This document shows positions 26,213 through 60,002 of a stretch of DNA of 64,000 bases, piece by piece. The translations under genes were made by a program, and so were the position numbers. The DNA lies in the IMG/VR virus record IMGVR_UViG_3300047362_000477, positions 1 through 64,000 of that record; one strand, written 5' to 3'. Every line of letters starts with the position of its first letter. Position 1 is the stretch's first letter. The stretch comes from a virus. Below the pieces are notes generated by a model. The model worked only from the letters and a program-made list of their open reading frames with translations, searched no databases and had not been told where the DNA came from.

Positions 26213-26439
26213 TCGCTCATTTTTTTAACAAAATATTCCCATTCTGAAAATAGAGTTACTCTTATCCAATTATGTCTAGGATCAACACTAGTTAGATACC
26301 TTTCTATCCAGTACCAGCTAAACCAAACAATTTTACCACTAGACATTTTTTTTGGTAACCATGCAAACTTTTTTGTTGGTTCCATATTTGTTGTCATTCT
26401 AAGTGGTGTATTAGTTAATACCTTTTTTAAATGTTTCAT
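26209..26439 (-). CDS. hypothetical small protein at the end of the radical SAM island
   Basis: A 76-residue protein starting inside the end of the 26411 radical SAM gene (29-base overlap). A longer frame from 26514 is possible but less likely. The sequence is basic and Trp-rich (KFAWLPKKMSSGKIVWFSWYW) and ends in a charged strand. Its family is unknown to me. As the last gene of a polycistron of about 19 kb it may still belong to the pathway. Confidence 0.5.
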   Translation of the reverse strand: MKHLKKVLTNTPLRMTTNMEPTKKFAWLPKKMSSGKIVWFSWYWIERYLTSVDPRHNWIRVTLFSEWEYFVKKMSD

Positions 26440-27595
26440 CGCCTGGAAATAATGGCATCTGAGTGCCTGGTTTACGTTTTGGTATTTTACTATCAGCACT
26501 TGATACACAAGCACCAGTAGTACATTTTACAGGACCATCAAATAGTTTGAATCCTGTTTCAATGTTTCCTAAAGGCTGATCGTGACAGCTATAACTTCTT
26601 TTAATACTACCATCTGGTTCACGTATAATAATTGATCTATATCCACTACTACATTCCCAACCTTCAAACTTATTAAAATTAAAAGCATTAAATCTTTCTG
26701 CTTGATCCATATACCAAGGACTGCCTTCTTTATCTCTAAACTCAATTTGCATATGCCATGGCACATCTGCACTTTGTTTTCTATAATGATCGTCTTTATC
26801 AATTTTAAAATTAGGTTTAGGTCTTACAACTAATTGTCGTTGTTGTGCTTTAGCTTCTGTATATGCTCTTTGTGGCATTCCATTATAAAGCCTTTGTTTC
26901 ATTTCATCTGTATAGCCGTCTACAATTTTACTTGCAGTAGGATCTGATTGAGGTTTTAATGTAACATTAATTCCTTGTTCATGAAAGAACAATGCATTTT
27001 CCCAATCTCTTTCAAACCATTCTGGAACCATAACTTGATTAATTGTAATTTGTACATCATGTTCTTGACAAAATATAAGTTTATCAGCAAACGCCTGCAT
27101 TTTTTCTTTTGAGTCAACGTGCTCTGTATGCAAACTTGCAGTAATACTTGCTCTATGAAATTTACTTGCATAATCAACATATGTTCCAAACCATTTCATA
27201 TTACGACTACAGTTTGAAGTCATATGTACACTTGTATAATTTGTATTGTGTGCATCATCTGATAGATGCTTCATTATATCTAAATAGCCAGGGTGGAATG
27301 TTGGCTCACCTCCACTTAAACTAAAATGAAAACTATTGAAGCCACGTTCACGAGCTTGACGTTTTATTTCATCTACAGTTTTTAAACAAAGTTCTGTAGG
27401 TCTATGATCTTTTCTATCGCTTCTAGCATAAGGCCAACAGTAACTACATTTGTAATTACAGAATCTTCCTAGTAGCCAACTAACAGTAAACATATCTCTA
27501 TACAACATTGTACGTTGACCTACTCTAACTAGATCATTATACGGTGTTGCAGTAAAATCGTATTCACTCCATTTTAAGTCTTTATCTTTACTCAC
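26411..27595 (-). CDS. radical SAM enzyme with Cys-rich C-terminal domain
   Basis: A 394-residue protein. GRFCNYKCSYCWPYAR gives Cys46, Cys50, Cys53 (CX3CX2C), and FSLSGGEPTFHPGYLD is the SAM-binding GGEP segment. A C-terminal domain with EGWECSSGYRSIIIREPDGS, SYSCHDQPLG and KCTTGACVSS looks SPASM/twitch-like, holding one or more extra Fe-S clusters. That domain closely resembles the free-standing protein at 29144-29545. Unlike most island members it lacks the N-terminal FCxLP/CC module. It overlaps the upstream 91-residue gene by 8 bases. Confidence 0.88.
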   Translation of the reverse strand: MSKDKDLKWSEYDFTATPYNDLVRVGQRTMLYRDMFTVSWLLGRFCNYKCSYCWPYARSDRKDHRPTELCLKTVDEIKRQARERGFNSFHFSLSGGEPTFHPGYLDIMKHLSDDAHNTNYTSVHMTSNCSRNMKWFGTYVDYASKFHRASITASLHTEHVDSKEKMQAFADKLIFCQEHDVQITINQVMVPEWFERDWENALFFHEQGINVTLKPQSDPTASKIVDGYTDEMKQRLYNGMPQRAYTEAKAQQRQLVVRPKPNFKIDKDDHYRKQSADVPWHMQIEFRDKEGSPWYMDQAERFNAFNFNKFEGWECSSGYRSIIIREPDGSIKRSYSCHDQPLGNIETGFKLFDGPVKCTTGACVSSADSKIPKRKPGTQMPLFPGDETFKKGIN

Positions 27596-27863
27596 TGTCG
27601 TCCTCTCCTAAGATATGGATAGTACCACATCCTCTACATTTACAAGTAGTTTTTGACATTTTTAATATCATACAACATTGTTTCATTTTTCTTTTATTTG
27701 TAAAATAAAAGCATCTAGTATTCCATTCCCAATAATCAGTAACATCTTGTGACCACCATGCTTTTCCTTTTTTTCCTAAATTTAGTTCTAAATACTTTTC
27801 AAACCAATCTACAGATTTATCTTTTTCGTCCATATGATAGTTTACTAAAATTCTATGTTTCAT
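27588..27863 (-). CDS. small Cys-rich protein
   Basis: A 91-residue protein. The N-terminal half is mixed (LVNYHMDEKDKSVDWFEKYL) and the C-terminal half has CCMILKMSKTTCKCRGCGTIH, a cluster of six Cys that could bind zinc or an Fe-S cluster. It lies between two radical SAM genes and overlaps both, so it may be a partner, carrier or modified substrate. No family recognised. Confidence 0.55.
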   Translation of the reverse strand: MKHRILVNYHMDEKDKSVDWFEKYLELNLGKKGKAWWSQDVTDYWEWNTRCFYFTNKRKMKQCCMILKMSKTTCKCRGCGTIHILGEDDSE

Positions 27864-29154
27864 CTATTTGATCCAACTTATTATTAAACTTGCGATATTG
27901 TTCATATTTTTCATCATGCTTATTATTCTTAATAGCAGTTTCTAACCAACTAATAGCTCCATTGATGTGAGTTTCTAACATAAACCTTCTAGGAGTATTG
28001 CGTCTATCCTGGTGGTTTAAGCTGTCAAATACCCGTTTTAAGCCGTCTATTCCTGTTTGGAGCTCTGTAGGGTGCTGAACGTTTGCATGAAGGAAATCTG
28101 GCCATTGTAGACGGCTAGTATGCCAATGAATACCAAGTTCAAATACAATAGCTTCAGCAGTCTCGCCAAGCTCTTTTGCATTCATGCCACTAATGCAAGT
28201 AGTACCTTTTATAACATCTAGGTTATCTAATTCTGATTTACATAGTTCTATGTTTGATTTTAGCAAATCCCAATCGCTTTCTCTTCTTATACGTTCATTT
28301 AATTCTTTATATCCATCTATACTAATAGTTAGTTTAATGTTTTTAAACTTTTTCCATATATCTATAATATGCTTTTTACCTAACTTCATAATACTTAAAT
28401 TGGTACTATATTTTAATGTAACTTTTTCTGGATTAGGTACTGCTTCTAAAACTCTATAATGAATGGGATCCATAAGTGGCTCCCCTCCAGCAAATTCTAA
28501 TTCTTCAACGTGTTCCATTAATCCTATTAATTGTGAAATAAACTTCTCATCTCTTTCATATAGATTCATAACACGTCTTTTATACATATCATTCTTTTCT
28601 ACAATATCGCCTATATATTCTTGATCACCTTTGCCATAAAATTCTTTAACTTTATCCCAATCTTGCATCCATTTAGAACTATCTTTTGGCCAACACATTC
28701 TACATTTAAAATTACATACATTTGAAAGTTTTAGTTCTAGTAAAGGTATATTAAAATCAACTTCTCTATGCTCTAAATACTGTATTACATTTTTTCTTGT
28801 TGTCTCTTGGTCCATTGTATCTGTAATTCTATTTAATCTTAGACTAACAATATCCTGTGCTTCCATTTTCCAGCAATTTCTACATTGTGGTATTTTTTCT
28901 CCTAGCAATAATGAATCTCTAACCTCATTCATATATTCGCCATTCCAGTATTCTTTTAAATCAAAATCTGGATCACTTACATTTGGATTTCTTCCATCAC
29001 GTGGAGGTTGTCCTCTACAACATAGTTTTATTTCTCCTTGTGGCATAGTGCTTATATGATTAAATGGTAGTGGACAAAATGTAGATTTATCAACAGGAAG
29101 TTTTCCTATCTTGCCTATGGCTCTTTCGTAAAACTTTATATAATTACTTTTCAT
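27853..29154 (-). CDS. radical SAM enzyme, island type
   Basis: A 433-residue protein in two parts. The N-terminal module has FCPLPFNHISTMPQGEIKLCC (Cys27, 45, 46) and IPQCRNCW (Cys91, 94). The radical SAM core starts at LKLSNVCNFKCRMCWP (Cys147, 151, 154) and has LEFAGGEPLMDP further on. The front module recalls a SPASM/twitch cluster domain placed at the N-terminus instead of the C-terminus and should bind at least one more Fe-S cluster. The substrate is unknown. It overlaps both neighbours by about 10 bases. Confidence 0.9.
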   Translation of the reverse strand: MKSNYIKFYERAIGKIGKLPVDKSTFCPLPFNHISTMPQGEIKLCCRGQPPRDGRNPNVSDPDFDLKEYWNGEYMNEVRDSLLLGEKIPQCRNCWKMEAQDIVSLRLNRITDTMDQETTRKNVIQYLEHREVDFNIPLLELKLSNVCNFKCRMCWPKDSSKWMQDWDKVKEFYGKGDQEYIGDIVEKNDMYKRRVMNLYERDEKFISQLIGLMEHVEELEFAGGEPLMDPIHYRVLEAVPNPEKVTLKYSTNLSIMKLGKKHIIDIWKKFKNIKLTISIDGYKELNERIRRESDWDLLKSNIELCKSELDNLDVIKGTTCISGMNAKELGETAEAIVFELGIHWHTSRLQWPDFLHANVQHPTELQTGIDGLKRVFDSLNHQDRRNTPRRFMLETHINGAISWLETAIKNNKHDEKYEQYRKFNNKLDQIDET

Positions 29155-29545
29155 TTTTGTAATCCTTTAGAAGAGAATCTAACTCATCATCAATAGCGTC
29201 TTTTGAATGTTTTGATTCGTGTCCTATTCTAACTCTGTCAACGTGTTTAGGTAATGCTTTAGTTAATTGCACATCTGCCGCACATACACAACTTGGTTTA
29301 GTACACATTATAGTTTCTTCAGGCATTTCAAAACCATCATATATATTTCCTAGCTTACCTCCAACCTTACATATAGCTCTATATACGTCACCGGTATTGC
29401 TTATGGTAATGTTTTGTACACCTGCCCAACATTCCCAACCACGAAAGTCATTTAGTTCTTTGGCCATAATATTGTTAACATTATCTTCTTCACTTGTTCC
29501 ATCTTTGTAATGTACAATAATATTTTTAAAGTTATTAATTGCCAT
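29144..29545 (-). CDS. free-standing SPASM-like domain (tail 1)
   Basis: A 133-residue protein without a radical SAM core. FRGWECWAGVQNITISNTGDVYRAICKVGGKLGNIYDGF followed by MCTKPSCVCAAD aligns by eye with the C-terminal domain of the 26411 enzyme (EGWECSSGYRSIIIREPDGS, LGNIETGFKLF, CTTGACVSS). It therefore looks like the detached cluster-binding tail of a radical SAM enzyme, probably the core at 30524-31240, which ends early. Its ATG lies inside the last codons of tail 2. Confidence 0.65.
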   Translation of the reverse strand: MAINNFKNIIVHYKDGTSEEDNVNNIMAKELNDFRGWECWAGVQNITISNTGDVYRAICKVGGKLGNIYDGFEMPEETIMCTKPSCVCAADVQLTKALPKHVDRVRIGHESKHSKDAIDDELDSLLKDYKNEK

Positions 29546-29915
29546 CTAAATGTTCCTCTGTTTCAGCTCTACCGTATCCTCTGTCTGTTTCTTTGTAACC
29601 TGTGCCTGGTGTAGTATTATTTTTCTTACATAATTGTAAACACGGACTTGGTAAATCTAATGTTTCATGCCCATCTAATATTGCTTTAAATACATCTGAA
29701 TCGTATATTTCTTGCATTGTACTAATTTTTATATTTAACTTTGCAAGATTTAGACCTTTTTGTTCACACCATTTTTCTAATTTTTGCCAGTTAAGGCGCG
29801 AACCATAAAAGTTACAAGGTCTCACATCACCAGTAGCACCTAATTGAATATTGTTTTTAATCATATTATCATCGTGTGTACATCTTGGTTCTAAGGCTGG
29901 GTTAATCTTATACAT
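29535..29915 (-). CDS. free-standing SPASM-like domain (tail 2)
   Basis: A 126-residue protein. EPRCTHDDNMIKNNIQLGATGDVRPCNFYG and LPSPCLQLCKKNN resemble the C-terminal Fe-S domain of SPASM-type radical SAM enzymes. It begins at an ATG 8 bases inside the end of the core at 29908-30531 (ATGTATAA overlap), so core and tail are almost fused. A frame slip at the overlap would give one continuous enzyme. An upstream in-frame start at 29957 lies within the core gene and is less likely. Confidence 0.6.
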   Translation of the reverse strand: MYKINPALEPRCTHDDNMIKNNIQLGATGDVRPCNFYGSRLNWQKLEKWCEQKGLNLAKLNIKISTMQEIYDSDVFKAILDGHETLDLPSPCLQLCKKNNTTPGTGYKETDRGYGRAETEEHLDGN

Positions 29916-30531
29916 ATGGATTATCCTCGCCTTTTTGAATTCCGTAATTATCTTCACCTCGCAAACTTACTACAGGATTAAATCTATCAAATCCTAAATC
30001 CATTGCCATTTGCCTAGCCGTCTCAACTTGATGTTCATTGTATTTAAAAATTAACATTTTCCATTCTAGTCTGGGTCTTCTTTCTTTTGGTATACTAGTC
30101 ATCCATTTTACGCCAGTCATTATTTGTTTCCACTTTGCATTTATTCTATAGATATGATTAGTGTCTTCTAACCCATCTATGTTAAAAACAAACTCACAAC
30201 GTTTCCAAGATTGTTCAGCGGCTTTTTGCCAAAACTTTTCTGGTTTAGCACTACCATTTGTATGTACTTGTGTCCACTTATCTCTTTCAACAAAATAACT
30301 CATAATTTCTAAAAAATCTGGATGATATATTGCATCACCATAACAACCACAAAATGTATATCTTTTAAAATTTGTAGTATCTGCTATATTAAATAATAAT
30401 TCTTTATCTAAATGTCCTGCGTCCCATATACCACCATGATTTATATCTTTCATTCTTGAACAAGCTGGACATTGTAAAACACATTTACTAGTTATTTCAA
30501 TTTCTAATTTATCATCTGGTTGATTATGCAT
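29908..30531 (-). CDS. radical SAM core without C-terminal domain (core 2)
   Basis: A 207-residue protein. ITSKCVLQCPACSRMKD gives Cys17, Cys21, Cys24. FCGCYGDAIYHPDFLEIM takes the GGEP place with GCYGD, HTNGSAKPEKFWQKA follows, and FNIDGLEDTNHIYRI is the barrel's fourth region. Sequence and segment order are close to the full-length enzyme at 43307 (GNWGDPMMHP, HTNGSMRGEKFW, FAVDGLEDTHHIYRR). It stops where that enzyme goes on into its SPASM domain; the missing part seems to be the next gene. Start chosen at the ATG overlapping core 1. Confidence 0.8.
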   Translation of the reverse strand: MHNQPDDKLEIEITSKCVLQCPACSRMKDINHGGIWDAGHLDKELLFNIADTTNFKRYTFCGCYGDAIYHPDFLEIMSYFVERDKWTQVHTNGSAKPEKFWQKAAEQSWKRCEFVFNIDGLEDTNHIYRINAKWKQIMTGVKWMTSIPKERRPRLEWKMLIFKYNEHQVETARQMAMDLGFDRFNPVVSLRGEDNYGIQKGEDNPYV

Positions 30532-31240
30532 TTTCTCGTAACCAACTTTCTTCTTCAGGACTATAATACTGTCCTGCAAATTTAATAGTTTCTTCGTGTA
30601 AAGGATGTTGTCCTAACATACCATCACTGTGTGGTTTGTTCCAACCTGTTCTATCCATATTGACTCTTGGTCTTATTTTACGAATAGTATATTCAACACC
30701 CATATCTTTTAATTCGTCTGTTATCTCAATCCATTTATCTTTCATTCCAGGTAATGCCATAATATGAACGTGCATACCTTTCCATTGATCTTGTTCTCTA
30801 TACTTTTTAATTTCTTCCCACATACCTCTTACATTGTTAATTACTTTTTCATGATATGCAAATTCAAAATGATAGCTTATAATCATATAATGTAAATATG
30901 GCAATGCTTTTTTATATATCTTTGGAGGAGGACTTCCATTGGTTGTTACACTACATCTGTATACACCATTTTCTCTAGCATACTTTAACATATCAACAAA
31001 CCTTGGATTAACAAATGGCTCACCGCCTGTAAAACTTATTTTTATTTTTTTACCTTTTGATGCTTCTACAATTTTATCTATAGTGGAGGTGTATACTTCC
31101 CAAGGCATAGAATCACTTGTAGCATCATGTAGTTCGTTACCACAGTAACTACAATTATAATTACAACGTTTACCTATGTTCCACTCAACTCTTAAAAGTT
31201 CATCTTTAGCTGGAAAGTTATCTTCAATACCTACTAGCAT
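30524..31240 (-). CDS. radical SAM core without C-terminal domain (core 1)
   Basis: A 238-residue protein. WNIGKRCNYNCSYCGNEL gives Cys26, Cys30, Cys33, and ISFTGGEPFVNPRFVDML the SAM-binding strand. CSVTTNGSPPPKIYKKAL and an HFEFAYHE segment follow. The N-terminal FCxLP module is absent and there is no C-terminal cluster domain. The matching tail may be the protein at 29144-29545, separated by core 2 and tail 2. Its last codons overlap the ATG of core 2 by 8 bases and its start overlaps the next upstream gene by 7. Confidence 0.85.
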   Translation of the reverse strand: MLVGIEDNFPAKDELLRVEWNIGKRCNYNCSYCGNELHDATSDSMPWEVYTSTIDKIVEASKGKKIKISFTGGEPFVNPRFVDMLKYARENGVYRCSVTTNGSPPPKIYKKALPYLHYMIISYHFEFAYHEKVINNVRGMWEEIKKYREQDQWKGMHVHIMALPGMKDKWIEITDELKDMGVEYTIRKIRPRVNMDRTGWNKPHSDGMLGQHPLHEETIKFAGQYYSPEEESWLRENA

Positions 31241-32421
31241 ACAAAGTATTCCTTTAGTTCTGGAACTGCTTCAACTACATTGTCTCCACGTAGTTTATCT
31301 AAATCTTTTGTGTAATTAATAAAGATGTCCCATTGTTCTTCATTAAAAGTTCTTTTGTTCATACTCTTTACTAATTTTTTAAAATCATCATAAATTGACA
31401 ATCTTTCTACTGCCTGGTCTCTTAAATTATCTGGTAAATTCATTGGACTCAAATAAGCAGGTTGATTACAAATAGTAGTAAAACTATTATTAGCACTTAC
31501 TCTTGGGTATTTATCTTCTAATTCGTTAAGGAAATTATGCAACTCTGGTAGATTGAATACATTGTAGTTTTGTAATGTTACATTAAACATTATTTGCACG
31601 TTTTCCAATTTGCTATATTCAGCTAATGTTTCTTCCAACTGTTCTATATTATATTTGCCACCTCTTATATAAGAATAAAGTTTACCAGTACCTTCTATAC
31701 TAAAACATATACTAACACGTTTGAACTGTTTTAGCAAGTTTAAAATTTTAGGATTTTGTACTGTACCATTTGTTGTATAAAACAATTCTATGTCTGTCAT
31801 GCCTTCTTCAATTAACCATTGTAGGAATTGATTGTGATGTTTTGCCATCATAGGCTCGCCACCTTTGAAGTCTATTCTCATAACATCTTTTAAGTGTGGT
31901 AGTAAGTTTCTTAAATCTTCTAGACTATATTGTAGCAACGGAACTTCGTTAATATTTTTTTGATATCTTTTATCAATCTTTGCTAATGCTATTTCTTCTT
32001 TAAACCAACTGTTACTTGCCCAACTTCCACACATACGACATTTTAAATTACATACATTTGACAAGTTAATATCTGCTTGGTATAATTTAGGAAACTCTAC
32101 AATATTTGTATCTGGTATAATACCTTTTTTAAATTCTTCTTTGTTCTTCATAAACTTTTTATTAAACCAAAGACGTCTACTTTCGCCAACTAAATCTTCT
32201 CTCTCCCAACAACTCTTACAAGCATCAGGTTGTTTCCCATCTCTAAAATCTTGTCTTAATTGTTGCATACGTTCACTATTATAGTTTTCCATAATAGTAG
32301 GATGTTCTGTATTAGGTTTCCTACCTCTATTGGTAAACTGACAACAAGGTTTAATATCACCATTAGCACTCAATGTAACGGCGTGCCAAGGCATATAACA
32401 AAATTTACTCATTAAGGCCAA
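31234..32421 (-). CDS. radical SAM enzyme, island type
   Basis: A 395-residue protein. The N-terminal module has KFCYMPWHAVTLSANGDIKPCC (Cys8, 26, 27) and ACKSCW (Cys68, 71). The core has LSNVCNLKCRMCGSWAS (Cys124, 128, 131), and DFKGGEPMMAKHHNQ stands for GGEP. The later ICFSIEGTGKLYSYIRGG belongs to the barrel's middle and is shared with the 42052 enzyme. It ends in the short acidic tail (VPELKEYF) typical of this group. It overlaps the SDR-like gene upstream by 10 bases. Confidence 0.9.
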   Translation of the reverse strand: MALMSKFCYMPWHAVTLSANGDIKPCCQFTNRGRKPNTEHPTIMENYNSERMQQLRQDFRDGKQPDACKSCWEREDLVGESRRLWFNKKFMKNKEEFKKGIIPDTNIVEFPKLYQADINLSNVCNLKCRMCGSWASNSWFKEEIALAKIDKRYQKNINEVPLLQYSLEDLRNLLPHLKDVMRIDFKGGEPMMAKHHNQFLQWLIEEGMTDIELFYTTNGTVQNPKILNLLKQFKRVSICFSIEGTGKLYSYIRGGKYNIEQLEETLAEYSKLENVQIMFNVTLQNYNVFNLPELHNFLNELEDKYPRVSANNSFTTICNQPAYLSPMNLPDNLRDQAVERLSIYDDFKKLVKSMNKRTFNEEQWDIFINYTKDLDKLRGDNVVEAVPELKEYFVC

Positions 32422-32969
32422 TCCTTTTGTATTGGGTCAACACTCAATTCATTAACGTTTAAGTGCCAAGGCATATTAACTGCATATTCTATACAATCTA
32501 CTGCTTCTGATAATTTCATTACTTTTCTATCTGGGTGTTTGTGTGCATTATTTTCTAGTGTACCAAATGTTACATATGTTACTTTAGGACCGCCTGTCCA
32601 AATGCTTTTTAAACCCAATGCGTTGCTAGTTGAACGCAATGCTTTCTTTTCTTGCTGATACTGCCAATCAGAACCTTTGCTGGTCCTGTCGGTTGTACTG
32701 CCTAAACTCACAATATGTAGTCGTTTTAGGTTCTTTAAAGCGTTCTTATAGACTGTATCTAGTACCAGAGTTTGATGATACTGCCATAGTGCGGAACAGT
32801 TAATAAAAACGTCATAATTAAGCACCTTTTCAGCTAACTTGTTTTTATAACCATTTTCAGTTAAATCGTAACCCCAACCTGTTCTACTTACAAATGTAGT
32901 TTCTGGCCAACGATGTGCTATTTCTTTTGCAACACCAAATTCTGGATTACCTGTACAGATTATTCTCAT
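32412..32969 (-). CDS. SDR-like NAD(P)-binding protein
   Basis: A 185-residue protein of Rossmann type. IICTGNPEFGVAKEIAHRWP (3-22) resembles the TGxxxGIG nucleotide loop in relaxed form (TGNPEFG). DVFINCSALW fits the NNAG strand, and SDWQYQQEKKALRS contains a YxxxK pair (Tyr, then Lys four residues later) as in short-chain dehydrogenases. Such enzymes oxidise or reduce hydroxyl and keto groups. It is short for an SDR (about 240-260 is usual), so the substrate part may be trimmed. Inside the radical SAM island, a redox step of the pathway is plausible. Confidence 0.65.
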   Translation of the reverse strand: MRIICTGNPEFGVAKEIAHRWPETTFVSRTGWGYDLTENGYKNKLAEKVLNYDVFINCSALWQYHQTLVLDTVYKNALKNLKRLHIVSLGSTTDRTSKGSDWQYQQEKKALRSTSNALGLKSIWTGGPKVTYVTFGTLENNAHKHPDRKVMKLSEAVDCIEYAVNMPWHLNVNELSVDPIQKDWP

Positions 32970-33124
32970 TTACTTTTTCCTGGTTTCTTTTTAGGTTTAT
33001 ACTTTATAAACTTTTTTTCTTCTTTTGCAACACCTATTGACTTTTTAAGTTTTTCAAATAACTCTTCGTCCATTCCAGCAAATATCCCTCTAGGATCCCT
33101 ATTGTTTCTTTTGTTATATTTCAT
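32966..33124 (-). CDS. small basic protein
   Basis: A 52-residue frame between two genes, overlapping both by 1-4 bases. It starts MKYNKRNNRDPRGIFAGMDEE and ends in a Lys/Pro-rich run (KFIKYKPKKKPGKSK in outline). It could be a small nucleic-acid-binding protein. Otherwise it could be a short precursor peptide for the radical SAM enzymes around it, though nothing proves that. Function unknown. Confidence 0.55.
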   Translation of the reverse strand: MKYNKRNNRDPRGIFAGMDEELFEKLKKSIGVAKEEKKFIKYKPKKKPGKSK

Positions 33125-44356: not shown

Positions 44357-44359
44357 ATG

Positions 44360-45761: not shown

Positions 45762-45812
45762 TATGTTCCTTTGGTAGTTTTCTACTTAATTATGCTTGTT
45801 GGTAGATTTCTG

Positions 45813-45841: not shown

Positions 45842-45862
45842 ATATGCAATGGAGCAAAAATC

Positions 45863-47371: not shown

Positions 47372-47390
47372 AATACTTGCTCCTTTATAC

Positions 47391-47398
47391 TATTTATT
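47391..47398 (-). promoter_or_regulatory. AATAAATA late-promoter-like motif
   Basis: On the - strand AATAAATA lies 20 bases before the nitroreductase ATG, inside the short gap after the repeat-bearing protein. Weak on its own; counted because similar motifs head other units. Confidence 0.3.
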
Positions 47399-48842
47399 AT
47401 GCTACTACTGTATATTCGTACAAGTATGTTGTACTTGCTGGTGCTACACTTACATCAAAGTAATAATCATAGTAATCGCCACTGATTTGAGTCTTAGTAA
47501 TATTACCTGTTACTGTCATTGAAGTTCCTGATGTTGTACCAACATAGAATGTATCACCTGTTGATAAGTTATCTAGAACATAGTTAATATTTCTACGTAA
47601 GTCATGGTCCTTGCCTTCATTCATTCTAACACGCATTTGTGCGTTTCCAGTTGAACTGTCAGCCGCTGTGTACCATTGTGTCTGTGATGAACCTGAATCG
47701 CTATAGTATTCACCACCTGTGAATGTTTCACCAGACGATGGAGCAGTCCAGGTTTGTGATGGATCAGCAATATGGAACCATTGTGATTCTGCGAGTATAT
47801 TACTATAATCACCTGCTTGTTTCATCAACCAAACTTGTCTAATTTCGCCATCTTCTGTGACACTATCATCTATCGCAGTTATAGTAGCACTAACTTGTCC
47901 ATTTGAAACTGTTAGCCATCCACTTGTTGAAGGATTACCTGATACGTCATTCCAGTTTGGATCACTACCTGATTGGTATGAACCATAATATGTTGATACA
48001 CAAGTATAGTAAACTTGTATTCCGTCTGGTGCATTGGTTGTTGCTGTCCATGTCATAGTATCACCTTCTTCTAATTGTGCCTGATAAGCACCGTCATCAT
48101 AATTTGAACTATGAACTCCATAGTCGGTTGCACCTGAGGCAAGAGTACCATACGTAACCGGACTAGCAATATCAATCGTTGTTGCTACGCTCCAATTAAA
48201 ATCAGAAGCGTCTTGAGTAGCTGGTGTTGTTGATGTATCGTTTATTGTAACATACTTAATATTTGAATTACCATTGTCTAACGATATTTGTAAAGTTTCT
48301 GTTCCTTCTGTAGTAGAATCAGCAGTAATATTTAAAGTTATTGAATCTGTTGTTCCAACAACAAAGTTTCCTGTAAGACTAGCATTATCAATATCTGCAC
48401 TAGAAACTCCAGAGATTGTATATGGCAATGTAGTTCCGTCAGCTACGGCTGTTGTTGCTAGAGATATTGTAACTGAGCCACCTTCATTAACTGTTGAATA
48501 ATCGCACGATAAACTATAGCTTAAAAATTCGGCATCTTTTTCTGCATACAAATCACCATCTTCTGTTGGACGTAATGTCCACGCACCAACTCTAACTCCG
48601 CCGTCTGCTATAAAAGGTCTTTGTGATCCTGTTATTGCAGTTTCAGATAGATTCATATCTCCATTACCGTCAACTGTCATTCTCCAGTCTCCCATACGTA
48701 AACCTTTGTCAACTCTGAACATCTTTTGTGAACCTGATATAGTATGCATATTAGAAACTTGCAGGTCGCCGTTTGCTAATTCAACAATGCTCCATTCGCC
48801 TAAACGAACGCCAGCATCTGCCATAAATGCTTTTTGTGCCAT
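47397..48842 (-). CDS. beta-rich repeat protein, possibly virion or receptor-binding
   Basis: A 481-residue protein. Three N-terminal repeats (KAFMADAGVRLGEW 4-17, KMFRVDKGLRMGDW 40-53, RPFIADGGVRVGAW 75-88), each followed by a GD strand turn, look like a multimerising or particle-binding head. About 105-210 resembles a Calx-beta domain (STVNEGGSVTISLAT, then STTEGTETLQISLDNG). Ser/Thr/Gly-rich strands follow to the end. Higher Thr, Ser and Ala codons than neighbours suggest a different origin. It is probably displayed on the virion or cell surface, although it sits in a biosynthetic region. Confidence 0.6.
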   Translation of the reverse strand: MAQKAFMADAGVRLGEWSIVELANGDLQVSNMHTISGSQKMFRVDKGLRMGDWRMTVDGNGDMNLSETAITGSQRPFIADGGVRVGAWTLRPTEDGDLYAEKDAEFLSYSLSCDYSTVNEGGSVTISLATTAVADGTTLPYTISGVSSADIDNASLTGNFVVGTTDSITLNITADSTTEGTETLQISLDNGNSNIKYVTINDTSTTPATQDASDFNWSVATTIDIASPVTYGTLASGATDYGVHSSNYDDGAYQAQLEEGDTMTWTATTNAPDGIQVYYTCVSTYYGSYQSGSDPNWNDVSGNPSTSGWLTVSNGQVSATITAIDDSVTEDGEIRQVWLMKQAGDYSNILAESQWFHIADPSQTWTAPSSGETFTGGEYYSDSGSSQTQWYTAADSSTGNAQMRVRMNEGKDHDLRRNINYVLDNLSTGDTFYVGTTSGTSMTVTGNITKTQISGDYYDYYFDVSVAPASTTYLYEYTVVA

Positions 48843-48886
48843 GATAATCTCCTAAAGTATTACAGTTACTTCTCTAACTATTCTAG

Positions 48887-48894
48887 TATTTATT
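48887..48894 (-). promoter_or_regulatory. AATAAATA late-promoter-like motif
   Basis: On the - strand AATAAATA lies about 45 bases before the ATG of the repeat protein. The gap between it and the aaRS-like gene contains no other promoter, which fits a late, structural-type gene. Confidence 0.35.
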
Positions 48895-48910
48895 TAGATA
48901 TTGGTAATAA

Positions 48911-49738
48911 TTAAGTTACAGTATTTTGTTTATCTAAAGCACTAATCATTCTTGTCATGCCTATACCACCGCCTACACGTGGGAAGAAGTCAAACTTTAA
49001 GAACTCTTCTAGTTCTGCTTGTACTCGTTCTTTACCAAATAGTTTAAATAATAGTTCACTATATGCACCTTCTGTAATAGTATGAAATGTATCTCGCATT
49101 TGTTCTACATCACATGAACGTTCTGCACTTCCTATTGTTTCCATTCCACCTAGTATTACATCAATCTTCTTTGATTCTGTGTCACCAGGATATCTACTCA
49201 TATTCCAAAAAGGACTTGTGAATTCTGGAAAGTCTGTAATCATTGCAGTTTTAAAGTCTTCGTACATTTTAGTTTCATGTTCTGCCTTTAGCTCACCTTC
49301 AACACCATAATGACTTTGCCAATCAGCATATGTCATTTCGTATGGTTTTTCAAAGCCTAAGTAATCTACTAGTTCGTATTCCATTTCTTTTAAATTGTCA
49401 ATGTTACCTGGCATTTCAAATTCAAACATTGGAAATATTATATCGTGTCTACCTGGAATAGCATTTGGCTCTTGTCTATAGCTGGTACTTACACAAAAGA
49501 AACCTTTTGCATTAGGGTCTGTAAGTAATTCGTGTTCAAGCCACATTTGACCTGTTTGTGGAAGTGGCCATACTTGACCTGCATAATTGTATGTTGCTAC
49601 ATTAAATGGATCTTCACAAGCGGCAAGTATTGATAATCTGTTTTGGGTATGGACTTCTTGGAAACCTTTAGCCAAAAAAAATGACCTTAAAAGGCCAACT
49701 GCGTCTGTAAATTTTTGTGGGGATATTAACTGTGTCAT
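48911..49738 (-). CDS. class II aminoacyl-tRNA-synthetase-like core, no anticodon domain
   Basis: A 275-residue protein with motif 2 (FFCVSTSYRQEPNAIPGRHD, Arg88 and Glu90, then IFPMFEFEMP) and motif 3 (VGGGIGMTRMISAL, Arg263) of class II synthetases, nearest to the Asp/Asn/Lys group. The OB-fold anticodon-binding domain is absent. Such free cores include asparagine synthetase A, EpmA and others that activate an amino acid for something other than tRNA charging. I use the ATG at 49738, which has AAGGAAAA before it; the longer frame would begin at a TTG among A-tracts. In this cluster it may supply aminoacyl-AMP for the product. Confidence 0.78.
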   Translation of the reverse strand: MTQLISPQKFTDAVGLLRSFFLAKGFQEVHTQNRLSILAACEDPFNVATYNYAGQVWPLPQTGQMWLEHELLTDPNAKGFFCVSTSYRQEPNAIPGRHDIIFPMFEFEMPGNIDNLKEMEYELVDYLGFEKPYEMTYADWQSHYGVEGELKAEHETKMYEDFKTAMITDFPEFTSPFWNMSRYPGDTESKKIDVILGGMETIGSAERSCDVEQMRDTFHTITEGAYSELLFKLFGKERVQAELEEFLKFDFFPRVGGGIGMTRMISALDKQNTVT

Positions 49739-49812
49739 TTCTTTTTCCTTTTCATTGTTCAAAAAAAAATATTTGATAGCCAAAAAAAAATCTGATTAAT
49801 TTGTTATCGTTT

Positions 49813-49820
49813 TATTTATC
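49813..49820 (-). promoter_or_regulatory. GATAAATA late-promoter-like motif
   Basis: On the - strand GATAAATA lies about 75 bases before the aaRS-like ATG, just inside the end of the second amidinotransferase gene. Two T9 tracts (- strand) lie between it and the ATG. Confidence 0.4.
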
Positions 49821-51048
49821 TTCGTAGCTCGTTATTACCCCATAATCTACCAAACTCAATTCCCTGATCTCCACGTTCTGGAAAATAGTCTTCACAATCA
49901 CCTTCACGTTCTAGATCACTTGTAGCACAATGTAATCCACCGTCCCAGAAGAATCTGTGTCTCATATTACAAGTAACTACATCTACTTTATGTTCACCTA
50001 ATTTATCTTCAAGTTCTTTAGCAGGGCCACTAGCAATTACTGTATTCTCATTAACACTCAAACAATTTACATCAAAATTAGTCTCCCAACAAGCACCTAC
50101 ACTAGGGTGCATATATAAATCAATAAATTTATGTAATGCTTCGTTTTGTTCTTCGCCTGCTATCCAATAATCTGCTACTGGTCTTTTCTTGTTTAATCTC
50201 CAGTCATCTTTTACTGTTACTCTATAATCTTGCCAAGCAGTAGTATGATCATTATGCTTTCTATCTATTTTAATAACATCCCAACCTGGATATGTTTCTT
50301 CATATTTGTTTACATTAGTATGACTAATAAGCAATCCTGGTCTCACTAGAGCTAATACTGCATCTGTATGACCACCCATAACTGTAGTATTGATTCTAAA
50401 ATTGTACCCATACTTTTCATTAAACTTTTTAAACCATTCAACTAATACTTTAGTAGGGCCATTAAAGTCATGTAAGTCAATCATAATATCTCTACCAGTT
50501 CTCATAATACTAGGCCAAGAAATAGCAAATCCTTTGCCTGGGTTTAGTGCCGTTGCTTCTTTTATTATGTTTAATTCTTGATTCTCATCTCCTAGATCTA
50601 AAAAATCATCACAACCTGCCCAAGGTGCATATTCATCTTCAGTAAAGATATTATGGTTATCAAGCATTGTTTTATTCCATTTTCTAAAAATACTATCACG
50701 TTTGCCTGTTAATAATTTTTCACCAAATATAATTTGATCATCTCTAGGTGTATTAAATGGTCTTGGTATGTATCCTTCTTCTTCTACAAATTCTGTTACA
50801 CTTTCGTATCTTTTATTATCAGTTACACAAGTATCTGGCATTCTGTAAACTTTTACACCATAACTTTCTGTTAATACTTTACAAAAATAATCCAAGTCTT
50901 CTCTGGTTTCTTCATTTACTTTCGTCATGACATCTGCTACTTTTTTATCATGATAGTCTTCAAAGAAGCCTTTAGGAAATACATTTCCCACCATTACCTT
51001 TGTTAGTTTATCCCAACTATTATAACTTTTAAATCCAAAATTATTCAT
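49816..51048 (-). CDS. amidinotransferase/guanidino-modifying enzyme (second copy)
   Basis: A 410-residue member of the amidinotransferase superfamily. It opens with WDKLTKVMVGNVFP. VMGGHTDAVLALVRPGLLIS gives the catalytic His/Asp and FWDGGLHCATSDLEREGDCEDYFPERG the active Cys374. It shares FWDGGxHCxTSDxxREGDCE with the copy at 44697 but is longer, with an extra C-terminal segment and a longer middle. The two probably act on different amines or in sequence. Its start overlaps the small gene upstream (TAATG). Confidence 0.85.
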   Translation of the reverse strand: MNNFGFKSYNSWDKLTKVMVGNVFPKGFFEDYHDKKVADVMTKVNEETREDLDYFCKVLTESYGVKVYRMPDTCVTDNKRYESVTEFVEEEGYIPRPFNTPRDDQIIFGEKLLTGKRDSIFRKWNKTMLDNHNIFTEDEYAPWAGCDDFLDLGDENQELNIIKEATALNPGKGFAISWPSIMRTGRDIMIDLHDFNGPTKVLVEWFKKFNEKYGYNFRINTTVMGGHTDAVLALVRPGLLISHTNVNKYEETYPGWDVIKIDRKHNDHTTAWQDYRVTVKDDWRLNKKRPVADYWIAGEEQNEALHKFIDLYMHPSVGACWETNFDVNCLSVNENTVIASGPAKELEDKLGEHKVDVVTCNMRHRFFWDGGLHCATSDLEREGDCEDYFPERGDQGIEFGRLWGNNELRR

Positions 51049-51191
51049 TACTTTTTTGCTCCTCCATTAAACCAAAATGACCACTTGCAATGCCAGTGAA
51101 TATGTTCGTTAATGTTATTTAGTGACTTCTGATCTAATTCGTTCAAACTCGGGCGACACTTTGGTAACCACGTGTTGTCTGAATCTGTCAT
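51048..51191 (-). CDS. possible small protein
   Basis: A 47-residue frame starting inside the C-terminal end of the 51115 radical SAM gene and ending in an exact TAATG overlap with the amidinotransferase. It is rich in Trp, His and Asn (NEHIHWHCKWSFWFNGG). It would fill an otherwise unexplained gap of 66 bases. There is no clear ribosome site, so this is tentative. Confidence 0.35.
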   Translation of the reverse strand: MTDSDNTWLPKCRPSLNELDQKSLNNINEHIHWHCKWSFWFNGGAKK

Positions 51192-52374
51192 AGTTTTCTG
51201 TGACTTTGACGTATTGACGCATGATGTCAGCATTATACTTATGCTTACTATCAAGACTAAAATTAACCACTTCCATAAGTGGCTCTTCGTATTGTTTAAA
51301 GTGTGGGCTATTTCCGATACTCTTAAGAAATTCCAATATTTGTTCACGTTGTCTCTCTTTCAACCATTCTGGAGCATGAGCCATACTATAATATTGAGGT
51401 TCAATAAGTTGATTAGTACTCATTCCAATTCCTCTATTACTAGTCATTTGGTAGTCATGCATAAACTTCCAAAACTTTGTAATGTGAAGTGCATTAGTCA
51501 TCTGGTTAACTGTAGTAACTCTTACCTTAATACGTTTACCTGCTTTAGTATCTGCAAACTTAACTAACTTATCAAAGTTCTTCCAAACACTATCCCATTT
51601 AGATGGCGGTCTTAAATAATCGTTCATTTCTTCCATACCTTCTAATGAGCAGTTAACTATTACACGTTCAAACTTACTTAATTGTTCTAACCATTTGTCT
51701 TGCATATTAGTAATGTTTGTATAAAAACTTAACTCAATATGTTCTGCGTGTCCACTTTCTACTGCAAGATCTAATAGTTTAAACATATCTTTGGCTACTG
51801 TTGGTTCGCCTCCAATTAATTTTATTTTACGAGCATACTTTAACATAGGAGTAAAACTTTCCCATTCTATTCCTGGCTGAAGTAATGCTTTTTTCTTTTC
51901 TGCAATCATGCCTTTCCAATCCTTGTGATCTAACCCAAGTCCTTGGTCTATCATCTTTGCACGTTCTATACTTACCAAATGTGATGCTTCTTTGTTACAC
52001 ATTTGACATTGTAAATTACATAGATTTCCTAGTCTAAAATCAAATTGTAAAGGTTGTTCAACTTCCCAATCATTAGCTGAAGCATCAGCTACTACATCAT
52101 CAATTACATCTTTCCATTGTTCATTTTCCCATTGTCTTGAACTCATAATGCCATTACGTTCTAAGTGTTGACATTCGCCACATTCGGGTAACCATTCGCC
52201 TGCAGTCATTTTACGTCTTACTTCTTTTACGTAGTCATGATTCCAAGTACCTTCTATACCTAGTTCTTCTTGATTAACTAGTTTTTTAGGTTCTTTGGCC
52301 ATACAACATAGTCTATAACGTCCACCGTTATATGTACTATATTGAACAAATGGTAACGAACAAAATCCGCTCAT
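51115..52374 (-). CDS. radical SAM enzyme, island type
   Basis: A 419-residue protein. I use the ATG at 52374, just before the conserved start MSGFCSLPFVQYSTYNGGRYRL; the longer frame runs into the nucleosidase gene. The front module has Cys5, Cys23, Cys24 and PECGECQ (Cys65, 68). The core Cys119, 123, 126 lie in LGNLCNLQCQMCNKEAS, and IKLIGGEPTVAKDM is the SAM loop. It sits directly behind the MTA/SAH-nucleosidase-like gene, which can clear the 5'-deoxyadenosine that such enzymes release. Confidence 0.9.
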   Translation of the reverse strand: MSGFCSLPFVQYSTYNGGRYRLCCMAKEPKKLVNQEELGIEGTWNHDYVKEVRRKMTAGEWLPECGECQHLERNGIMSSRQWENEQWKDVIDDVVADASANDWEVEQPLQFDFRLGNLCNLQCQMCNKEASHLVSIERAKMIDQGLGLDHKDWKGMIAEKKKALLQPGIEWESFTPMLKYARKIKLIGGEPTVAKDMFKLLDLAVESGHAEHIELSFYTNITNMQDKWLEQLSKFERVIVNCSLEGMEEMNDYLRPPSKWDSVWKNFDKLVKFADTKAGKRIKVRVTTVNQMTNALHITKFWKFMHDYQMTSNRGIGMSTNQLIEPQYYSMAHAPEWLKERQREQILEFLKSIGNSPHFKQYEEPLMEVVNFSLDSKHKYNADIMRQYVKVTENYDRFRQHVVTKVSPEFERIRSEVTK

Positions 52375-52375
52375 A

Positions 52376-52915
52376 TTATTTACACATCTCCAAAAAGGCA
52401 CCTGCGCCTTTTGCTTGATTATTTTTCCAACTATCTGCCGCATTCTCATCAGCAAAATCTGTTACATATTTATAGCAAATAAAAGGCTTGTTAAAATGTT
52501 TACAAACTTTTGCTATACCATACGATTCCATATCAACTATATCACTTTCAAGTTCTGGTGGTGCTTGTACAAAATTATCACCACTACTACAACTCCATGC
52601 ACTATTTGATATTCTAATATCTCCTGCAAATCCAGTTTCTTCAAAAGGAGTTATACCTAACCCAGCTTGTGGTCTTGTATCCATATCACGTTGTTTAACA
52701 AGTCCAACCTGAACTAATTGTTCTGCTAGTTCTGTATTTAATGCACCAGCAGTTCCATAATTAATTACTGCTTCGCAATCAGATTGTATACAAGCCATAG
52801 TAGCAAACATTGTAGCATTTACTTTTCCGACTCCATGATACCAGACTTTATATTCTTCTGGATTTAGATTATGCTCTGGAAGTTCACCTTTCAGAGCTAC
52901 TAATACATACTTCAT
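52376..52915 (-). CDS. MTA/SAH nucleosidase-like protein
   Basis: A 179-residue protein of the PNP/MTAN fold. GVGKVNATMFATMACI (28-43), VINYGTAGALN (50-60), CSSGDNFV (109-116), DIVDMESYGIAKVC (125-138, Glu130 at the ribose-binding Glu site) and KYVTDFADENA with Asp153 match the nucleosidase family. MTAN hydrolyses methylthioadenosine, SAH and 5'-deoxyadenosine to adenine plus a sugar. It is about 50 residues shorter than bacterial enzymes, mostly in the middle. Flanked by radical SAM genes, removal of their inhibitory by-product is the likely role. It overlaps the upstream gene by one base. Confidence 0.82.
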   Translation of the reverse strand: MKYVLVALKGELPEHNLNPEEYKVWYHGVGKVNATMFATMACIQSDCEAVINYGTAGALNTELAEQLVQVGLVKQRDMDTRPQAGLGITPFEETGFAGDIRISNSAWSCSSGDNFVQAPPELESDIVDMESYGIAKVCKHFNKPFICYKYVTDFADENAADSWKNNQAKGAGAFLEMCK

Positions 52916-54186
52916 TATTTTTCCTCAATATCTAAATTTGTTAAATCTTCACCAAAATGTTTCCAGTTCTGATTTAGTCGATGTTTCGCTAACATCAATT
53001 CTTTTGTTAAATGCTGATCTAAATTTCCAGTTTCATCTATATGAAATCTAGCTACATCAAGCATTCTGCCTATAGGACTTTTTCTTGCTGGTGGATTGCT
53101 ATTTTCCCAATCGTTCCATTTCTTTTTAATTCTATCTTTTGTTTCCTTACTAAGATTTCTAAAATCTATATAGTCATCATGTCCTGGTGTAATTGGATTA
53201 ACATTAAACCAGTCTAATTCTTTATCTCCAACTTTACTATATAACCAATCTGCTATATCAGTTATTTGTCCTATGTTTAATGCTGTCATAACAGTATTAC
53301 TAGCAAATTGTATATTAACTTCGTTTGATAGTTCTCTATACTTGTTTACAGTATCTTCTATCATTTGCCAAGTATATTTGCCTGGCCGTTGTAATGTAGC
53401 ATTTTCTTTTACCCCATCAAGACTAAAAATAATATGAATTTTTTTAATCTTTTTCCAACATTCAATAACTCTTCTACTAGGAAAATGACTAGCATTAGTA
53501 TGATATTCTATTGCTAGTTTTTCTGGAGTATCATTAAGCTGAATAACTTTTTCTAATAAGTCATCATGTTTGTGTTCTAGCATAGGTTCACCACCTACAA
53601 ATTTTAAATAACGTAATTCAGATAAGTCATCATCTATGTTATCATTAGATTCATGAAAGCCTCTTGGTATTTTCTTTTTAGGAAATTTAATACTGTAGAT
53701 TGTACTACTAGCATAAGGGCCACACATAACACAAGCCATATTACAAAGACTGCTTATACCTGTTTCTAAATATTTTATTTTTGCAGGGCCTGTTGTAGTT
53801 TGTCTTGTTTTATCTGTTTTTTCATCAATGTTTAATCTAGGAAGACTTCCTCTAACTAATTTGTCGCCAGCATCTTCTGCTTTTAACAAAGAGTCTTCCA
53901 TACCCCAACATTTTCCACATTGATATGGTCTCTTCCCTTCAATCATTTGTTTTCTTATACTAGTAAAGTATTCACCTTCTCTGGCTTTTTTTATTCCGTC
54001 TCTAATATGAGGAGCTGGATCGTTTTTTGTCCTAGGACCAAAAAATCTGCAACATGGCATAACAAGCCCATCAGGGCCAACTGCGGCGCCTGCCCAAAGA
54101 TATGAACAATAACTTGATGTAGGTAAATCTTCTAGCCTAGATCTAATAGTTGGTGGTTGGTTATTCTTTTCCATCTTTTGGCTCAT
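52915..54186 (-). CDS. radical SAM enzyme, island type
   Basis: A 423-residue protein. The front module has SYCSYLWAGAAVGPDGLVMPCC (Cys27, 45, 46) and YQCGKCW (Cys90, 93). The core Cys148, 152, 155 lie in ISSLCNMACVMCGPYAS, and LKFVGGEPMLEHKH is the SAM loop. The linker between the modules is longer than in its relatives and very charged. It overlaps the nucleosidase by one base and the 54161 enzyme by 26. Confidence 0.9.
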   Translation of the reverse strand: MSQKMEKNNQPPTIRSRLEDLPTSSYCSYLWAGAAVGPDGLVMPCCRFFGPRTKNDPAPHIRDGIKKAREGEYFTSIRKQMIEGKRPYQCGKCWGMEDSLLKAEDAGDKLVRGSLPRLNIDEKTDKTRQTTTGPAKIKYLETGISSLCNMACVMCGPYASSTIYSIKFPKKKIPRGFHESNDNIDDDLSELRYLKFVGGEPMLEHKHDDLLEKVIQLNDTPEKLAIEYHTNASHFPSRRVIECWKKIKKIHIIFSLDGVKENATLQRPGKYTWQMIEDTVNKYRELSNEVNIQFASNTVMTALNIGQITDIADWLYSKVGDKELDWFNVNPITPGHDDYIDFRNLSKETKDRIKKKWNDWENSNPPARKSPIGRMLDVARFHIDETGNLDQHLTKELMLAKHRLNQNWKHFGEDLTNLDIEEK

Positions 54187-55591
54187 CTAGTAAGTAAGCC
54201 ATCTCAGGAAATGTTGCACGGAAATCTGTGCCACGAAGTTTATCTAACTTGTTAATGTATTCTCTAAATTCAGGAAGTCTACGAGTCCAGTCTTCACTCT
54301 TAGCAAACTTAATCATTCCTCTAAGTCTTTTGATTCCATAACTAGCTTCTTCCCACTTTTCATATGGTACTTTACCTTTATGCCAGCTAGGAACACCTAG
54401 TTCCCAATTTTCTTTCCACCATTCAATAAACTCTTCATACTTGGCTTCAGTCTTATCTAAAAACTCTCTTGGTAATACTTTAACATTCAAGTGTCCAGGC
54501 CAATATACAAAGTGATAGTTAATACCACCTGCACCAAATGGCCACATATTAGTTTTCTTTAGTCCGCTTTCCTGAAGTTTCCATTTAAGGAAATCTGGAA
54601 TATAATGAATGTTTAAGGCATTAACTGCACAGGCAATAGTTACTTCTACATTGTTTGATGTCATTGTATCCAAACGTTTGAACTGTCTTAAATTATGTTC
54701 CCACTCACTTGGATATCTTATATAATCATTCATAGCACCAATGCTATCTACACTATAATGCATACGAACTTTTTGAAAGTGTTTCCATTGCTCAAGTAAC
54801 CTATCTGGTAACTCAATACAGTTTGAATTGTAACGCACTTCAATTTGGTGTGCGTAACCCATTTCAATAACTTTATCTAAGATTTCATAATGTTCTTCAA
54901 TAACTGTAGACTCACCACCTGCAAAATATAATTGTCTTATGTACGGTATTTGTTTCCAAAACTGATCCCAAAACATTGGATTATCTTTGTGCCAATTATA
55001 ACTTGCATCAAATTCTCTACCTTTTTTCTCCCATACCATAGTATCTTTGAGTGTTTTATTTTCAATCTGTGGGTGTAATGCTTTCCAGTCTTTAACCCAA
55101 CCACTCGAGTCATGTGGGCTACACATAACACAGGCTAATTGACATTTGGTTCCCATACGTATATCGATGTAACGAAGTTTACTGTCAGTACTTCCATCTT
55201 CGTATGTTTCTTTTTTTAATTGTTCTATGTCAATTCCATCTTTAATCCAGTAGTCCGTTTCCCATTGTCGCTTACTTCTATGTCCTGCGGCTTCTTCCTT
55301 GTAGCACTTTAAACAACTTGCCGGTTTTTCGCCGTTCATCATCATCTTACGTACACTTCGCATATAAGAATTATTCCAGCTACTATCTAAATCTGAATTA
55401 TTTAAGTTGGCAGGTCTGCCATCTTCTAGTTTCAAAACTCCAACACGACCACCGTGCTCTTTGTCGTTTGTAGCACCTACTGAACTTGCATTTGCGGTAC
55501 AACATACTCTCATACTTCCGTCTGGTCTTGTTGATAAATGAATCCATGGTAGGATACAAAATGTATCCGAAGGTAATTTGTTATCTGACAT
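54161..55591 (-). CDS. radical SAM enzyme, island type (largest)
   Basis: A 476-residue protein, first gene of its unit. The front module has DTFCILPWIHLSTRPDGSMRVCC (Cys12, 30, 31) and ASCLKCY (Cys93, 96). The core Cys150, 154, 157 lie in MGTKCQLACVMCSPHDSS. The SAM loop reads FAGGESTVIEEH, with GGES instead of GGEP. A GATAAATA motif lies about 45 bases upstream, with no sigma-70-type promoter. The substrate is unknown. Confidence 0.9.
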   Translation of the reverse strand: MSDNKLPSDTFCILPWIHLSTRPDGSMRVCCTANASSVGATNDKEHGGRVGVLKLEDGRPANLNNSDLDSSWNNSYMRSVRKMMMNGEKPASCLKCYKEEAAGHRSKRQWETDYWIKDGIDIEQLKKETYEDGSTDSKLRYIDIRMGTKCQLACVMCSPHDSSGWVKDWKALHPQIENKTLKDTMVWEKKGREFDASYNWHKDNPMFWDQFWKQIPYIRQLYFAGGESTVIEEHYEILDKVIEMGYAHQIEVRYNSNCIELPDRLLEQWKHFQKVRMHYSVDSIGAMNDYIRYPSEWEHNLRQFKRLDTMTSNNVEVTIACAVNALNIHYIPDFLKWKLQESGLKKTNMWPFGAGGINYHFVYWPGHLNVKVLPREFLDKTEAKYEEFIEWWKENWELGVPSWHKGKVPYEKWEEASYGIKRLRGMIKFAKSEDWTRRLPEFREYINKLDKLRGTDFRATFPEMAYLLDEPKDGKE

Positions 55592-59972: not shown

Positions 59973-60002
59973 CTTTATGTCCCTTATCTAACTTATAACT
60001 AT

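Follow-up and report, generated by a model that had tools for sequence, protein, structure and literature searches.

Radical SAM enzymes, a glycosyltransferase and movable auxiliary domains in a T4-like phage island: a candidate pathway shared with Bdellovibrionota

We analysed a window of 64,000 nucleotides (positions 1-64,000) of the IMG/VR virus record IMGVR_UViG_3300047362_000477, an incomplete sequence of 99,491 b, with attention to an island of radical S-adenosylmethionine (SAM) enzyme genes, hereafter rSAM genes, at 26.4-55.6 kb. The source virus appears to be a large T4-like phage, aquatic judged by its relatives, and its whole record holds ~20 rSAM genes, 15 in the window and about five outside it. 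The solid outcomes are the island itself and a conserved kernel of three rSAMs (26411-27595, 54161-55591 and 90890-91984), a GT-A glycosyltransferase (GT) and a methyltransferase-like protein. We give an even chance to a joint proposal: that these genes form one undescribed pathway, present in rSAM-rich T4-like phages and in predatory Bdellovibrionota, and that the auxiliary Fe-S domain of such enzymes is a portable module, placed before the core, after the core or on a separate subunit acting in trans. In the open literature we found no description of the kernel, of its presence in Bdellovibrionota or of separately encoded auxiliary domains, which leaves novelty unproven. If the kernel is one pathway, it offers a short, well-defined list of genes (a GT and three rSAMs) with a product that can be looked for in bacteria, and the question of what rSAM-rich phages do with these enzymes becomes directly testable.

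Results

A conserved kernel in related phages

The first kernel rSAM, g53 (26411-27595, minus strand), joins the core CNYKCSYC to a C-terminal four-cysteine twitch-like domain. Its orthologues in 12 of 13 related phages show 66-85% identity, with a mean column identity of 77%; most other island genes are 25-50% identical, the two closest phages excepted. The second, g83 (54161-55591, minus strand), carries its auxiliary module in front of the core (front-twitch type) and is 55-84% identical in 12 of the 13. The third, g138 (90890-91984), and the two remaining kernel genes lie beyond the window: g138 is mostly 46-75% identical in related phages, the GT gene (94649-95353) is found in all 13 and the methyltransferase-like gene (93682-94662) in 12. 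A GT-A fold is predicted for the GT, whose model (predicted local distance difference test, pLDDT, 88) matches the GT-A enzymes RmlT, SunS and WrtF in Foldseek with a best E of 5e-5; its family found nothing among PDB profiles. The model of g53 (pLDDT 80) has SkfB, CteB and anSME as Foldseek neighbours. The first-pass annotation had read a single pathway from the tight gene overlaps of the island, and this holds well for the conserved kernel, part of which lies beyond the window; the remaining rSAMs differ from phage to phage. Among 50,697 records of isolated phages, g53 and the GT have zero matches and g83 has one, partial and weak.

In several relatives the kernel GT is fused into proteins of 827-1522 amino acids (aa) (L178:1784-6352, L184:9112-12444 and L170:4853-7336), and the L170 and L184 fusions also take in the methyltransferase-like domain. 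A family of 72-97 aa proteins, represented here at 92928-93197 beyond the window, is kept near the kernel in 11 of 14 phages and is absent from the Bdellovibrionota cassettes.

The kernel in Bdellovibrionota

Scanning bacterial and archaeal genomes with the g53 family gave 23 loci, on contigs of up to 936 kb, mostly from Bdellovibrionota (Bdellovibrionales, Bacteriovoracaceae, Halobacteriovoraceae and Oligoflexia). The g53 gene is adjoined there by the other two kernel rSAMs, and the GT or the methyltransferase-like gene is also present in many loci. Where the three rSAMs occur together on Bdellovibrionota chromosomes, the GT is usually close by. Among 369 Bdellovibrionota genomes, g53 occurs in 22. 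All 20 genomes with g83 are also g53-positive (P 4e-31), as are 20 of the 21 with g138 (P 9e-30); these P values ignore shared ancestry. The distance between g53 and g83 is at most 6 kb in 18 of the 20 genomes. Locus L206, with the gene order GT, g83, g53, g138, looks chromosomal because a UvrD helicase gene lies nearby. In Halobacteriovoraceae, the kernel adjoins two family-2 glycosyltransferases and an amine oxidoreductase.

Phage and Bdellovibrionota kernel sequences are largely separate in trees, which speaks against a recent exchange of the kernel between phage and bacterium. Since deep support in these trees is weak, no host is inferred from the kernel. Phage-like genes are numerous in a few matches from other phyla, such as L214 and L196, which may be mis-binned viral contigs: both of these come from metagenome-assembled genomes (MAGs) of Gammaproteobacteria and look viral, and L214 is syntenic with phage G008. 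On two further MAG contigs, L201 (labelled Chloroflexi) and L207 (labelled Acidimicrobiaceae), about ten rSAM genes stand in a row, those of the kernel among them; these could be true bacterial loci or mis-binned viral contigs.

An auxiliary domain in front of the core

The suggestion that an auxiliary-cluster domain had moved ahead of the core is supported. Ten of the 14 island rSAMs have an N-terminal module with the order C-x17-CC, then CxxC, then the core. PF13186 (SPASM) matches the front of most of the ten, several above the Pfam cut-off. In addition, residues 10-79 of a profile built from ten such proteins align with residues 165-237 of BtrN, its C-terminal twitch domain (E 3.5e-5). The architecture is already catalogued as NCBIfam NF033640 (N_Twi_rSAM), for which membership is set at a full-length score of at least 170 bits; we found no paper that describes the function of the family. 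Ten window genes and one at 89.8 kb pass this cut-off. All ten are on the minus strand: g55 (27853-29154, 294 bits, also PF04055), g60 (31234-32421, 316 bits), g63 (33124-34341, 385 bits), g64 (34338-35384, 191 bits), g68 (38790-40025, 321 bits, also PF04055), g69 (40015-41154, 226 bits), g71 (42052-43320, 258 bits), g80 (51115-52455, 305 bits), g82 (52915-54186, 222 bits) and the kernel gene g83, the top match at 417 bits. The four front cysteines are kept in nine of the ten; in the cysteine map, g71 is without the CC pair. Despite this loss, g71 is still 87% identical in phage G002. The rSAMs at 26411, 29908, 30524 and 43307 are not members (23-45 bits) and consist of the core only or have an auxiliary domain behind it.

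Auxiliary domains behind the core and on separate genes

A related pattern, C-x(18-20)-CC followed by Cx3C, lies behind the core in 90890-91984, in 96053-97258 and in g72 (43307-44356, minus strand; PF04055 52 bits), a core-first rSAM with a C-terminal SPASM domain (PF13186, E 0.003, at 261-346). The C-x(18-20)-CC pattern also stands alone: a 95-aa gene with it (98411-98698) immediately precedes the core-only rSAM 97761-98414. A second type of auxiliary domain is the four-cysteine C-terminal domain of g53, whose C315, C337, C358 and C363 are invariant in 19 relatives. It too occurs alone, as g56 (29144-29545, minus strand; hidden Markov model of the g53 C-terminal domain, E 7e-12; pN/pS 0.20), the separate half of the core-only rSAM g59 (30524-31240, minus strand; PF04055 61 bits). 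Both halves are covered by one fused orthologue, the 324-aa protein G008_24. The g59- and g56-type halves are adjacent in G004, G009 and G027; in the present phage and G002 they are separated by other rSAM-related genes. The second core-only rSAM of the island, g58 (29908-30579, minus strand; PF04055 E 7.6e-6), has zero cysteines after its core, as does g59. Its separate half is probably g57 (29535-29957, minus strand), a stand-alone SPASM-like open reading frame (ORF) with five cysteines and no Pfam match, recognised from its cysteine pattern and position only.

Split pairs recur in 7 of 14 phage records, in both gene orders and mostly with exact 4- or 8-nt start-stop overlaps. In two records whole genes are inserted between the halves, and both halves are under purifying selection wherever tested. 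In a wider set of 160 loci, which partly overlaps the 14 records, a core-only rSAM is found no more than three genes away from 15 of 28 stand-alone auxiliary ORFs, compared with 27 of 718 other short ORFs (P 3e-13). The existence of fused relatives such as G008_24 would also be expected if the split genes were sequencing or frameshift errors, a reading that we consider very improbable, as recurrence in seven records, the two orders, the exact overlaps, the inserted genes, the selection on both halves and the enrichment near core-only rSAMs largely refute it. Core and auxiliary domain of the split pairs may thus work as two subunits. Such pairs provide a natural test of what the auxiliary cluster contributes, core and domain being separate genes, and both the front-placed and the stand-alone versions are useful for studies of mechanism. 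In two other phages, G016 and G027, 851-aa frames have two PF04055 matches each, as if two rSAM cores had been fused; 1177-aa frames of G025 and G026 have one match each.

Intact and ancient enzymes

Gene calling placed the CX3CX2C motif in exactly 14 minus-strand genes at 26411-55591 and in the plus-strand gene at 8763, as first reported from the letters. All 15 proteins match PF04055 (Radical_SAM) with E values from 5e-5 to 1e-16, and 13 exceed the Pfam cut-off; below it are g58 and g83, the latter in spite of its leading NF033640 score. A glycine-rich loop, described earlier as GGEP-like, follows the core in all 15. The front-module and twitch types have it as GGEP or GGES, 43307 and 29908 as GNWGD or GCYGD, and 8763 as GAEP. 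The cores have no long identical stretches, again in line with the earlier description, and are 22-30% identical to a reference paralogue. The ratio dN/dS is well under 1 against orthologues in every rSAM and split-half comparison, and pN/pS is at most 0.55 in every compared pair and near 0.2 in most. The profile scores and dN/dS rule out chance motifs, and the enzymes are intact, divergent and under purifying selection. In the minus-strand run, 20 of 27 gene junctions overlap or abut. A second sample yielded an assembly of the same virus, in which two genes are 100% identical and 73 kb contain 17 rSAM matches, and therefore the island is not an assembly artefact.

Where a tree of the 15 cores had been proposed, we built one with 217 cores taken from 14 phages. 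In it, the distance from most rSAMs of this phage to a gene of another phage is 0.1-0.9, against 2.5-5.4 to the nearest paralogue in their own genome, which rules out recent gene duplication. By sequence, the island rSAMs are old, separately maintained orthologue groups, for which we found no earlier description in the literature. The idea that each enzyme has its own substrate would fit this divergence, most being nearer to genes of other phages than to their neighbours.

Related phages are rich in the same enzymes. A search with gene 33124 gave 33 IMG/VR records with 3-23 PF04055 matches, and relatives carry up to 25 rSAMs, so that the island is not unique. When records were sampled through a non-rSAM gene, the ATPase at 60323-61483, rSAMs were present in 31 of 32, mostly 9-25 in the closest relatives and 0-14 in more distant ones; the richness in rSAMs is a trait of the lineage. 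A large unexplored stock of radical enzymes lies in phages with 10-25 rSAM genes. The ATPase is the MoxR-type member of a pair with a VWA-like protein (58806-61483), a useful lineage marker with at least about 600 IMG/VR matches. A T4-type clamp loader is encoded at 20399-21331. The T4-type portal gene is present in 8 of 19 tested records, including related kernel carriers, and is missing here, which the incompleteness of the record would explain. The isolated Vibrio phage K566 has four closely spaced front-twitch rSAM genes (L190:11959-18701) and is a possible culturable model.

Other genes of the island and of the record

Several enzymes accompany the rSAMs on the minus strand. The oxygenase g65 (35362-36147) is aspartyl/asparaginyl beta-hydroxylase-like (PF05118, E 3e-12), and g70 (41154-42059) is a short pyridoxal phosphate-type aminotransferase (PF00155, E 8e-5, over the cut-off). 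Two amidinotransferase-like proteins retain the GGH.D and GG.HC motifs: g74 (44697-45761), with catalytic-type GGHID and GGIHC and tblastn matches to the amidinotransferases of CP220 and S-SCSM2R, and g79 (49816-51048), with GGHTD and GGLHC and 26-29% identity to the g74 family in other phages. A protein related to class II tRNA synthetases and asparagine synthetase A is encoded by g78 (48911-49783; PF00152, 56 bits), and g76 (46688-47371) is weakly nitroreductase-like (PF00881, E 0.008, under the cut-off). By eye, g61 (32412-32969) resembles short-chain dehydrogenase/reductase-type NAD(P)-binding proteins; it has no Pfam or NCBIfam match and has orthologues in 9 of 13 related phages. The adjacent paralogues g66 (36138-37520) and g67 (37520-38803), the latter a distant relative of the former, keep their place beside rSAM genes in up to nine related phages, g66 in eight of the nine that have it; a search of PDB profiles with the g66 family found nothing. 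A small cysteine-rich ORF of 91 aa (27588-27863) has no match. On the plus strand, g75 (45863-46693), by eye perhaps an Fe(II) oxygenase, is 49-78% identical in G001, G002 and G006, where it lies beside rSAM genes. A repeat-containing, possibly fibre-like protein (47397-48842) has one relative, in G009.

Outside the island, the plus-strand rSAM g20 (8763-9689) scores 62 bits with PF04055, has NCBIfam matches all under cut-off and has no detected auxiliary module. Beyond the window there are four further rSAM proteins, at 89748, 90890, 96053 and 97761, and QueE (73683-74579), which together with a GTP cyclohydrolase (82142-82831) suggests 7-deazaguanine DNA modification.

Discussion

We read the region as a biosynthetic island of a T4-like phage that makes an rSAM-modified sugar and attaches it to the virion or host surface, and we regard this reading as evenly poised between right and wrong. 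The narrower statement that the product is a sugar or glycoconjugate carries the same, middling confidence. A modified surface sugar, a peptide and a small molecule had been named as possible products at the outset; of these the surface sugar has the best support, and we infer the sugar substrate, the order of steps and the final location as follows. Each rSAM, with SAM and a 4Fe-4S cluster, would remove a hydrogen from one carbon of its own substrate. Whether it precedes the core, follows it or sits on a separate subunit, the auxiliary cluster would bind the substrate or carry an electron away. The rSAMs would most likely edit a sugar or sugar-containing conjugate by oxidation, epimerisation or deoxygenation, and the aminotransferase, the amidinotransferases, the oxygenase and possible sulfotransferases would decorate it. 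The GT would then attach the modified sugar to the virion or host surface.

Besides the GT in all 13 related phages, the sugar reading is supported by a UDP-glucose dehydrogenase-like gene (75150-75944) and an Epimerase gene (PF01370, 82828-83823) in the same record; Epimerase is present in 14 of 25 phages of this kind. In addition, family-2 glycosyltransferases and an amine oxidoreductase adjoin the kernel in Halobacteriovoraceae, cyanophage S-SCSM2R has a relative of the amidinotransferase within a KdsA/KdsB/GT cluster, and in CP220 such a relative lies next to two nucleotide-sugar transferases. Several points weigh on the other side. No kernel enzyme has a known substrate, and peptides or proteins are the substrates of the closest structural neighbours of g53. 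Foldseek gives the GT low TM-scores of about 0.4. That 93682-94662 encodes a methyltransferase is read from motifs alone, and Pfam and PDB profile searches with this protein were empty. The compact cassette L206 has no further sugar genes flanking the kernel. Finally, the GT near rSAM genes could be coincidental, large phages often carrying both.

The neighbours of g53 speak for a different reading, in which the rSAMs modify a ribosomal peptide product or else the side chains of a structural protein of the phage, the GT glycosylating that same protein. The aspartyl hydroxylase-like g65 and the match of the GT to SunS, a peptide S-glycosyltransferase, point the same way. However, the usual peptide-recognition domain, PqqD/RRE, is found in none of 25 phages, a non-exhaustive search gave no small gene that is found with the kernel in phages as well as in Bdellovibrionota cassettes, and sugar-nucleotide genes are present. 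A candidate precursor, g141, is conserved near the kernel in phages but, L201 excepted, absent from Bdellovibrionota cassettes, and was rejected. We judge a peptide or protein substrate to be unlikely, although it is the strongest competitor of the sugar reading.

It seems distinctly improbable that the island makes a small molecule that diffuses or resembles a nucleotide, such as a guanidino-aminocyclitol or a chain terminator of the viperin kind. In favour of it, the front module is similar to the twitch domain of the aminocyclitol dehydrogenase BtrN, an aminotransferase and two amidinotransferases with catalytic-type motifs are at hand, and g53 is weakly similar to prokaryotic viperin. Its scores, 47 bits against a cut-off of 180 for NF038283 and 23 against 450 for TIGR04278, are however far too low for a viperin; moreover, no exporter was identified in the island and the most constant non-rSAM partner of the kernel is the GT. 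Slightly less probable again is a loose collection of unrelated auxiliary metabolic genes that accumulate in a hypervariable part of a large phage genome and act individually on host metabolism: most non-kernel rSAMs do vary between phages, and hypervariable regions of pelagimyophages differ by radical SAM cassettes (PMC7029224), but the overlapping gene junctions, a co-occurrence of the kernel in bacteria far past chance, purifying selection in every rSAM comparison and the lineage-wide richness under sampling by an unrelated ATPase all speak against it.

The number of rSAM genes had been thought to exceed what a phage should carry. It is high, but rSAM-rich phages are a kind already known, those with 11-12 having been reported in 2010 and 2017 (PMC2853527, PMC5332604). 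In the modules of the Campylobacter phages CP220 and CPt10, Timms et al. 2010 described 11-12 rSAM proteins each, plus an amidinotransferase, and considered so large a number highly unusual (PMC2853527). Like the island, these phages combine many rSAMs and an amidinotransferase in one variable module, which in CP220 also holds nucleotide-sugar transferases. In the CP220 stretch examined, by contrast, the rSAMs are core-first with auxiliary cysteines behind the core, and they are not orthologues of the kernel, whose profiles give 22-70 bits or nothing; the GT and methyltransferase profiles have no match in that stretch. Nishimura et al. 2017 reported the ocean genome TARA_ERS488813_N000010, which, like this phage, comes from a T4-like marine virus rich in rSAM genes, with 12 (PMC5332604). 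By its description it is set apart, as its genes were presented as Fe-S auxiliary genes, without a kernel, a front module or a pathway.

At the level of single enzymes, the SPASM enzymes SkfB, CteB and anSME are the nearest folds to g53 over about 350 columns. They are 12-15% identical to it, and neither a peptide precursor nor an RRE was found here. Characterised enzymes carry their auxiliary clusters in C-terminal extensions (PMC10470005). BtrN, which with SpeY represents the twitch rSAM dehydrogenases of aminoglycoside pathways, has an auxiliary domain that can be aligned with the front module; unlike the front module, it comes after the core, and overall identity is too low to infer a substrate. 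NF033640, the family of twitch domain-containing radical SAM proteins, has the same front-placed auxiliary module as the ten window genes and the gene at 89.8 kb; what differs here is that many ancient members occur in one phage, linked to the kernel.

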